A stretch of DNA of 35,297 bases from a bacterium (GTDB taxonomy: Bacteria > Patescibacteriota > Patescibacteriia > UBA9934 > GWF2-40-263). The stretch lies in assembly GCA_020051955.1 (NCBI GenBank), contig JAGVQB010000025.1:1-35297 (forward strand), read 5' to 3'. Shown piece after piece: positions 17,638 to 18,233 of this stretch. The notes beneath the pieces are model-generated. The model saw only the letters and a program-made list of their open reading frames with translations. It was not told the DNA's origin and did no database searches. Position numbers and translations under genes: made by a program. Every line of letters begins with the position of its first letter. The first letter of the stretch is position 1.

Positions 17638-17667
17638 ATAAGGTCCGATCGTCCCTTATTCGACATG
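17638..17667. repeat. Flanking repeat, 3' side of the PaaX/Cas2-like gene (contains its stop codon)
   Basis: ATAAGGTCCGATCGTCCCTTATTCGACATG; internal ATAAGG/CCTTAT inverted repeat. Confidence 0.85.
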
Positions 17668-18204
17668 GTCATATTCACGAACCTCATAAATCCGAACCCA
17701 CTTTTTTAAACCAATCGCATTCAACAGAGTACTCAATGCCTCTCCGGCGTTGAATTGAGAAATCCAAACGCTTTTTTGAATCGGAATAAACCCGGCGTTC
17801 CACAGAAACTCTCTTAATAATTTTCTTATGTCCCTTCTGGATTCCGGAACATCAAACACAACCAAACACTCTCGATCATCTTCATATAAATCAGAAGACA
17901 AAACCTTCAGACGAAGGTATTCATTTGCACCTTTTTGCGTTAATGCTACGAAATACTTATCAGCACGCTGTTCAATCTCAAGTAACTTTTTCTTTTTCAG
18001 TCCATTTATTGCCCGCCTCTGATCTGCACGTTCTTGTGCTGACCTCATCCGATAAATACCATCCATCCCATACTTCAACACAGCACACGGTTGGTATCCG
18101 AAGGTAAGCACCAGGTCTAGGCTGTCTACTATTTCCTTAAATAACTCTGCCGACCGAGAACCTTCCTTCAAATGTGTCTTTCGTGGTTTATTTTCCTTGG
18201 ACAT
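17656..18204 (-). CDS. PaaX-like wHTH protein with Cas2-like (ferredoxin-fold) C-terminal domain
   Basis: wHTH-like N-terminus; 'RECLVVFDVPESRRDIRKLLREFLWNAGFIPIQKSVWISQFNAGEALSTLLNAIGLKKWVRIYEV' resembles PaaX C-terminal/Cas2. Confidence 0.7.
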   Translation of the reverse strand: MSKENKPRKTHLKEGSRSAELFKEIVDSLDLVLTFGYQPCAVLKYGMDGIYRMRSAQERADQRRAINGLKKKKLLEIEQRADKYFVALTQKGANEYLRLKVLSSDLYEDDRECLVVFDVPESRRDIRKLLREFLWNAGFIPIQKSVWISQFNAGEALSTLLNAIGLKKWVRIYEVREYDHVE

Positions 18205-18233
18205 ATAAGTGCCGATCGTCCCTTATGTGACAT
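18205..18233. repeat. Flanking repeat, 5' side of the PaaX/Cas2-like gene (abuts its start codon)
   Basis: ATAAGTGCCGATCGTCCCTTATGTGACAT; shares CCGATCGTCCCTTATnnGACAT with 17638-17667. Confidence 0.85.

Follow-up and report, generated by a model that had tools for sequence, protein, structure and literature searches.

The locus analysed here raises the question of why a small gene resembling both PaaX and Cas2 should lie between two related palindromic repeats, one at each of its ends, and of what these repeats are. It is found near the middle of the window, by which we mean the whole stretch of 35,297 nucleotides that was analysed. A first-pass annotation, made from the letters of the window, had proposed either a self-contained mobile cassette or an autoregulator whose operators had been duplicated. 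We found that genes encoding a winged helix-turn-helix plus a Cas2-like domain lie between two copies of their own repeat, here called R, and that R-like palindromes are scattered intergenically and track the gene family.

A PaaX/Cas2-like gene between two repeats

The gene occupies positions 17656–18204 on the minus strand, as called from its open reading frame, and encodes a protein of 182 aa having an N-terminal winged helix and a C-terminal Cas2-like ferredoxin domain. The Pfam profile PF20803 (PaaX_M) matched residues 113–177 with 55 bits and an E-value of 9e-15 (cutoff 24), and the chain ends directly thereafter; the PaaX C-terminal domain (PaaX_C) is thus absent from the 182 aa and the full PaaX architecture is not present. 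TIGR01573 (cas2) gave 24.6 bits against a cutoff of 24.5, a margin of 0.1 bit, and PF09827 stayed under its threshold (18.3 against 23.8). An AlphaFold model of the protein had a pLDDT of 84.7, and a fold search with this model returned E. coli PaaX (8a39) as the top match followed by many Cas2 structures, with none of the matches reaching an E-value of 0.001. These profile and predicted-structure matches bear out the PaaX/Cas2-like assignment made in the first-pass annotation, and neither cas1 nor a CRISPR array was recognised among the open reading frames listed around the gene.

As in PaaX regulators (E. coli PaaX, PDB 8a39), a winged helix is followed by a PaaX_M Cas2-like domain, and PaaX is the best structural match; the window protein differs from them in its missing C-terminal domain, in that no adjoining catabolic operon was seen, and in having palindromes on both sides of its gene and scattered over the genome. 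With CRISPR Cas2 (e.g. PDB 5xvn and 6qxf) it shares a conserved Asp (D118), a QxSVW motif and the TIGR01573 match barely above cutoff, whereas the winged helix sets it apart, no adjoining cas1 or array was seen, and R consists of dispersed palindromes instead of a spaced array. No recognised transposase motif was found in the protein. Judged solely by its resemblance to Cas2, it may have nuclease activity.

The two repeats, each of about 34 bp, do delimit the gene as had been claimed. The downstream copy lies at 17633–17666 on the minus strand (GACAAATAAGGTCCGATCGTCCCTTATTCGACAT; in gene sense ATGTCGAATAAGGGACGATCGGACCTTATTTGTC) and the upstream copy at 18200–18233, also on the minus strand (GACATATAAGTGCCGATCGTCCCTTATGTGACAT; in gene sense ATGTCACATAAGGGACGATCGGCACTTATATGTC). 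The TAA stop codon (17656–17658) is contained in the downstream copy, as first described, but the ATG start codon (18202–18204) is likewise inside the upstream copy and does not merely abut it. Both copies are centred on CGATCG (17646–17651 and 18213–18218), the commonest centre of the family. They have the 15-mer CCGATCGTCCCTTAT in common, which occurs exactly twice in the window; with up to three mismatches four matches were found against 0.61 expected, a number reached by 0 of 100 shuffles. Two of these four are the two palindromes read again on the other strand. Folded singly as DNA, the upstream copy gave −2.4 kcal/mol (z −0.3) and the downstream copy −4.9 kcal/mol (z −1.8). Both are thus weak hairpins that would not by themselves establish a hairpin in the window; the palindrome signal comes from the family.

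Two further features of the window may be recorded. A tRNA-like 5′ half (17435–17497, reverse complement GGGTGGTTAGCTCAGTTGGTACC) lies between a tRNA-Ala (17286–17361) and the repeat-gene-repeat unit, and positions 21019–26886 encode a repetitive protein of 1955 aa that has an extended poly-Glu stretch towards the C-terminus.

A gene family with private palindromes

The family was found in 50 of 147 related genomes, with up to nine copies per genome. A second search gave 28 named loci, including ones in Uhrbacteria, Yanofskybacteria, Nomurabacteria, Doudnabacteria and Berkelbacteria; its query was a 7-sequence alignment, used because a 38-sequence alignment was too diverse, and a single protein as query against the genome contigs gave no match. 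In Pfam searches of 38 family members PaaX_M was matched in all 38 at an E-value of 0.01 and Y1_Tnp in none. Among 110 aligned members D118, which is the Asp of the Cas2 motif, and S145 are conserved in all 110, R127 in 109 and P120 in 108, with neither an HUH motif nor an invariant Tyr among the conserved residues.

Upstream and downstream flanks of de-duplicated genes were compared by local alignment, using a score of at least 22. Across Patescibacteria, a matching repeat on both sides was found for 96 of 120 family genes as compared with 3 of 187 neighbouring genes on the same kind of contig, one of these three being uvrA in L157, itself situated between two R copies. This family-wide test with its neighbour-gene control rules out that the repeat is a coincidence of the window, and repeat plus gene, first regarded as a unit at this one locus, are a unit across the family. 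At L157 (2250–2300) a solitary R was also seen between uvrB and uvrA, adjoining an apparently duplicated start of uvrA.

R varies from gene to gene, with the two copies at the same gene matching each other, and consists of a short palindromic centre, arms that vary and outer bases that are conserved somewhat better. The centre is CGATCG in 57 of 102 downstream copies, followed by CGGCCG, CGGTCG, CTATAG and others. Where copies are asymmetric by at least three bases, 30 are in direct orientation and 8 inverted. Similarity between repeats increases with similarity between proteins (r = 0.24, 0 of 500 permutations, syntenic pairs excluded); repeat and protein probably diverge together, each gene thereby keeping a private repeat.

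The stems vary in a compensated manner. Between upstream and downstream copies, stem pairs changed on both sides remained paired in 46 cases and were broken in one, counting pairs that were paired in the upstream copy and with about one third expected to pair by chance. At the syntenic loci L173 and L180 the four copies have one centre and outer box in common, whereas their middles differ and yet are paired completely or almost so. Compensated stems may, however, arise without selection when quasi-palindromes are corrected by template switching, and the compensation therefore does not prove that a hairpin is selected for.

Scattered copies and how they relate to the gene

Allowing up to two mismatches, CCGATCGTCCCTTAT was found elsewhere in the source genome at C8:8065, C8:9527, C20:15071 and C7:7991, with the first two sites standing on either side of an AbiEi/AbiEii pair. 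That genome also has a second family member (C52:252–743, 33% identical to the window protein) flanked by another repeat, GACAATTTTTCTCACGATCGACGAAAAAATTGTC, which also occurs singly at C20, C46 and C49. Both repeat types are present together on each side of the AbiE pair, giving the order R-R, AbiE, R-R. The palindrome GACA..CGATCG..TGTC was found at 8 places in the source genome against none for the reversed control, including one at C8:22092 that is perfect over 34 bp. In the corresponding extracted locus (L001 63–1360, G000:C8:8089–9386) the bracketed genes were seen to form a type IV toxin-antitoxin pair, each side being a two-palindrome compound with type 2 followed by type 1. A near-perfect type-1 palindrome on C20 (L006 1497–1530) lies where two convergent genes meet and includes the stop codon of a plus-strand glycosyltransferase-like open reading frame.

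For a wider survey we derived a covariance model (R1) from 46 palindromes of the gene flanks, picked for CG..CG centres; its rows count both strands. Applied to 26 chosen genomes, it gave hits in 13 of the 14 having the gene (4–87 rows), while 10 of the 12 lacking it were without hits and the other two showed 2 rows. Over 147 genomes, gene and R1 were found together in 37, the gene only in 13, R only in 7 and neither in 90, corresponding to an odds ratio of 37 and a p-value of 7e-17 that is nominal because the genomes are related and species are not independent points. Some of the genomes scanned had themselves supplied flank copies for the training of R1, and as those copies count as hits the association is inflated for genomes with few rows; the rows are far above the supply of their own genes in G067 (38), G056 (26), G007 (23) and G025 (22). 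All four within-genus contrasts agreed (G004/G022, G053/G047, G060/G045 and G059/G048+G054). Some of the 13 gene-bearing genomes without an R1 match have other centres, and no gene was detected in the 7 genomes with R only. The first-pass annotation had named repeats found genome-wide without a link to the family as evidence against its proposal; the repeats are indeed genome-wide, but they are linked to the family.

A possible alternative is that R is mobilised by some other enzyme, for example a RAYT/Y1 transposase or a Xer recombinase, with the PaaX-like gene as a passenger or an R-binding regulator. Y1_Tnp genes occur in many of the related genomes, the source genome included, and AbiE as well as other open reading frames are also bracketed by R, as such an enzyme would allow. 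Over 26 genomes, however, R showed no association with Y1_Tnp (p = 1), and 52 R rows were counted in G139, where Y1_Tnp is absent, for which reasons RAYT-driven REPs were rejected. Furthermore, upon inspection no constant GTAG or GT[AG]G foot was present in the 36-column R alignment or in the inspected solitary copies, the CG..CG centre being invariant in that alignment but having been its selection criterion, and the constant neighbour of R is the PaaX-like gene. We therefore consider mobilisation by another enzyme to be improbable.

The surroundings of 52 scattered R copies in seven genomes were classified as tandem in 24 cases, convergent in 14, divergent in 10, inside open reading frames in three and unclassified in one. 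These counts look like random gene orientation, favouring neither promoters nor the ends of genes, unlike those of operators or terminators, which were accordingly rejected as the identity of the scattered copies. A perfect palindrome of 36 bp was present in 40 of the 52, a perfection partly due to selection because the 52 were drawn from the highest-scoring sites. Close pairs of R about 80 bp apart also exist, and in G067 26 of 28 copies are distinct.

The possibility that R is an RNA element, a terminator or an mRNA-end hairpin with the protein as an RNA-binding partner, could draw upon its hairpin potential and its presence at both gene ends, and ribonucleases occur among Cas2-fold proteins. 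Yet the stems have no sense-strand excess of G-U pairs (G/T 29, A/C 48), which does not favour RNA, the 10 copies between divergent genes and the many perfect 36-bp palindromes do not fit, and no Rfam match was found at R, whereby a known RNA family was also dismissed. An RNA role is in our view highly improbable.

Individual sites differ between close relatives. Five R sites of G007 were aligned to its congeners G025 and G033 (genus g5, Uhrbacteria): in G033 R was missing at four of the five sites with the flanking genes kept, the fifth having a degenerate palindrome, and in G025 it was missing at one of the five. The R rows number 23 in G007, 22 in G025 and 1 in G033, with the gene present in all three. 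Deletions could alternatively explain the missing sites.

The closest alternative to a dispersal system, and the main rival of the reading preferred below, is that the protein binds DNA at numerous sites as a regulator or as an organiser of the chromosome. As an ordinary autoregulating PaaX-type transcription regulator, the protein would use R as its operator and the scattered copies as its regulon, and its winged helix and PaaX_M domain, E. coli PaaX as best fold match, the overlap of the upstream window repeat with the start codon, and a repeat specificity that goes with the protein are all as expected of such a regulator. A matching copy at or just past the stop codon is not, nor are scattered copies without promoter preference (14 of 48 classified sites lie between convergent genes), stem bases that vary yet remain paired, or the 23 to 1 range of rows among congeners all carrying the gene. 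The suggested autoregulator with duplicated operators hence fails to account for the scattered copies, the lack of orientation preference and the compensated stems, and we consider regulation unlikely. Somewhat more doubtful still are chromosome-organising or partition-type proteins for which R would be a genome-wide docking site, spread by selection and not by mobility. The intergenic spread without strand preference, the many sites per genome and a winged helix weakly similar to that of the partition protein AspA agree with that role, whereas the free but paired stem sequence, the many different copies within one genome (G067) and the gain or loss of sites between congeners argue against it; known docking sites of chromosome-organising proteins keep a fixed sequence.

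As to the gene itself, the window locus in the related genomes that were read has the same flanking gene and mostly a nearby tRNA-Ala, but no PaaX-like gene, and in G003, where the junction was read completely from the flanking gene to tRNA-Ala, there is neither gene nor repeat. An integron- or pdif-like empty site with a single repeat was not found at this locus in the relatives. In L143 (G013:C78) the orthologous locus has a different open reading frame between a ligase gene and tRNA-Ala, possibly homing-endonuclease-like as judged by eye. Several family loci are common to a number of genera, namely uvrA-uvrC, mnmA-lepA and the sites downstream of comM-like and hflX-like genes (genes named by visual inspection of the translations), so that the gene is not freely mobile, although the occupants of the uvrA-uvrC, comM and mnmA loci are not mutual closest relatives in the tree. 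The intergenic uvrA-uvrC site in L155, L157, L161 and L163 has non-sister occupants, as if repeatedly targeted. In G132 the similarity among three paralogues is confined to the gene and its immediate borders, and in L102 the order is R-ORF-R-gene-R as compared with R-gene-R in its relative L084. Between L039 and L078, with flanks 89–92% identical, different inserts of about 450–550 bp bearing open reading frames were seen upstream and downstream of the family gene. The unit may at most be a self-contained mobile cassette: the relatives are without the gene at the window locus, but free mobility of the gene is weakened by the synteny, and no clean empty site with a single repeat was seen. What differs in presence between congeners is the solitary repeats.

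A REPtron-like arrangement with a different protein

Among known systems the nearest in arrangement are REPtrons, in which a TnpA-REP (RAYT) gene is flanked by REP palindromes (PMC6006769, PMC8266576, PMC3116915, PMC3733652). The likeness includes a small single gene flanked by cognate palindromes, the same palindrome class being dispersed intergenically and tracking the gene, several gene-repeat pairs per genome that are each private, a patchy distribution, and repeats occurring as pairs. The differences are that the protein here is a winged helix plus Cas2-like protein where REPtrons have an HUH/Y1 transposase (PF01797), that R does not show a constant foot of the GTAG or CGTC kind, and that a CGATCG-type centre forms the axis of the palindrome in the flanking copies. 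Since the protein is not a REPtron transposase, the window system is not a member of the REPtron family. CGTC-tagged REPs, a large class, are likewise palindromic, intergenic and without a RAYT partner (PMC3733652), but have the CGTC tag and no known dedicated gene, whereas R tracks a specific gene family. Searches of the open-licence PMC literature for PaaX/Cas2-like proteins together with palindromes, CPR or winged helices gave nothing relevant.

The reading that we prefer, at a probability of roughly one half, is that of a REPtron-like repeat-plus-gene system run by a non-homologous PaaX/Cas2-like protein and not by an HUH transposase. We hold it equally probable that this protein recognises R and is needed for its spread. 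Probably as a Cas2-type dimer with two winged helices, it would recognise R, which might then be folded into a hairpin or cruciform, and would act so as to copy R or move short segments bearing it. Occasionally a gene between two R copies might move along, be it the protein's own gene, the AbiEi/AbiEii pair of the source genome or the unknown open reading frame of L102. A bolder and distinctly less probable version, which we put forward tentatively, makes the protein the very enzyme by which its cognate hairpins are copied or moved. It would then be a DNA-dispersal machine of the Cas2 fold that works in the absence of Cas1, has no relationship to HUH, DDE, serine or tyrosine recombinases and occasionally carries a cargo, for example the AbiE toxin-antitoxin pair. 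The protein may alternatively act together with recombination or repair functions of the host.

Palindromes of the REP type are found in many bacteria and, to our knowledge, the Y1/HUH RAYT gene is the only one known to accompany them. If the preferred reading is true, a second and unrelated gene family has its own palindromes, and the repeat-plus-gene arrangement has had more than one origin. A role for the Cas2 fold at DNA hairpins beyond CRISPR would likewise be suggested, with bearing on the origin of Cas2, and some hundred naturally occurring pairs allow a direct test of the co-evolution of repeat and protein. For the organisms themselves, the reading would explain the presence of intergenic palindromes in the highly reduced genomes of Patescibacteria.
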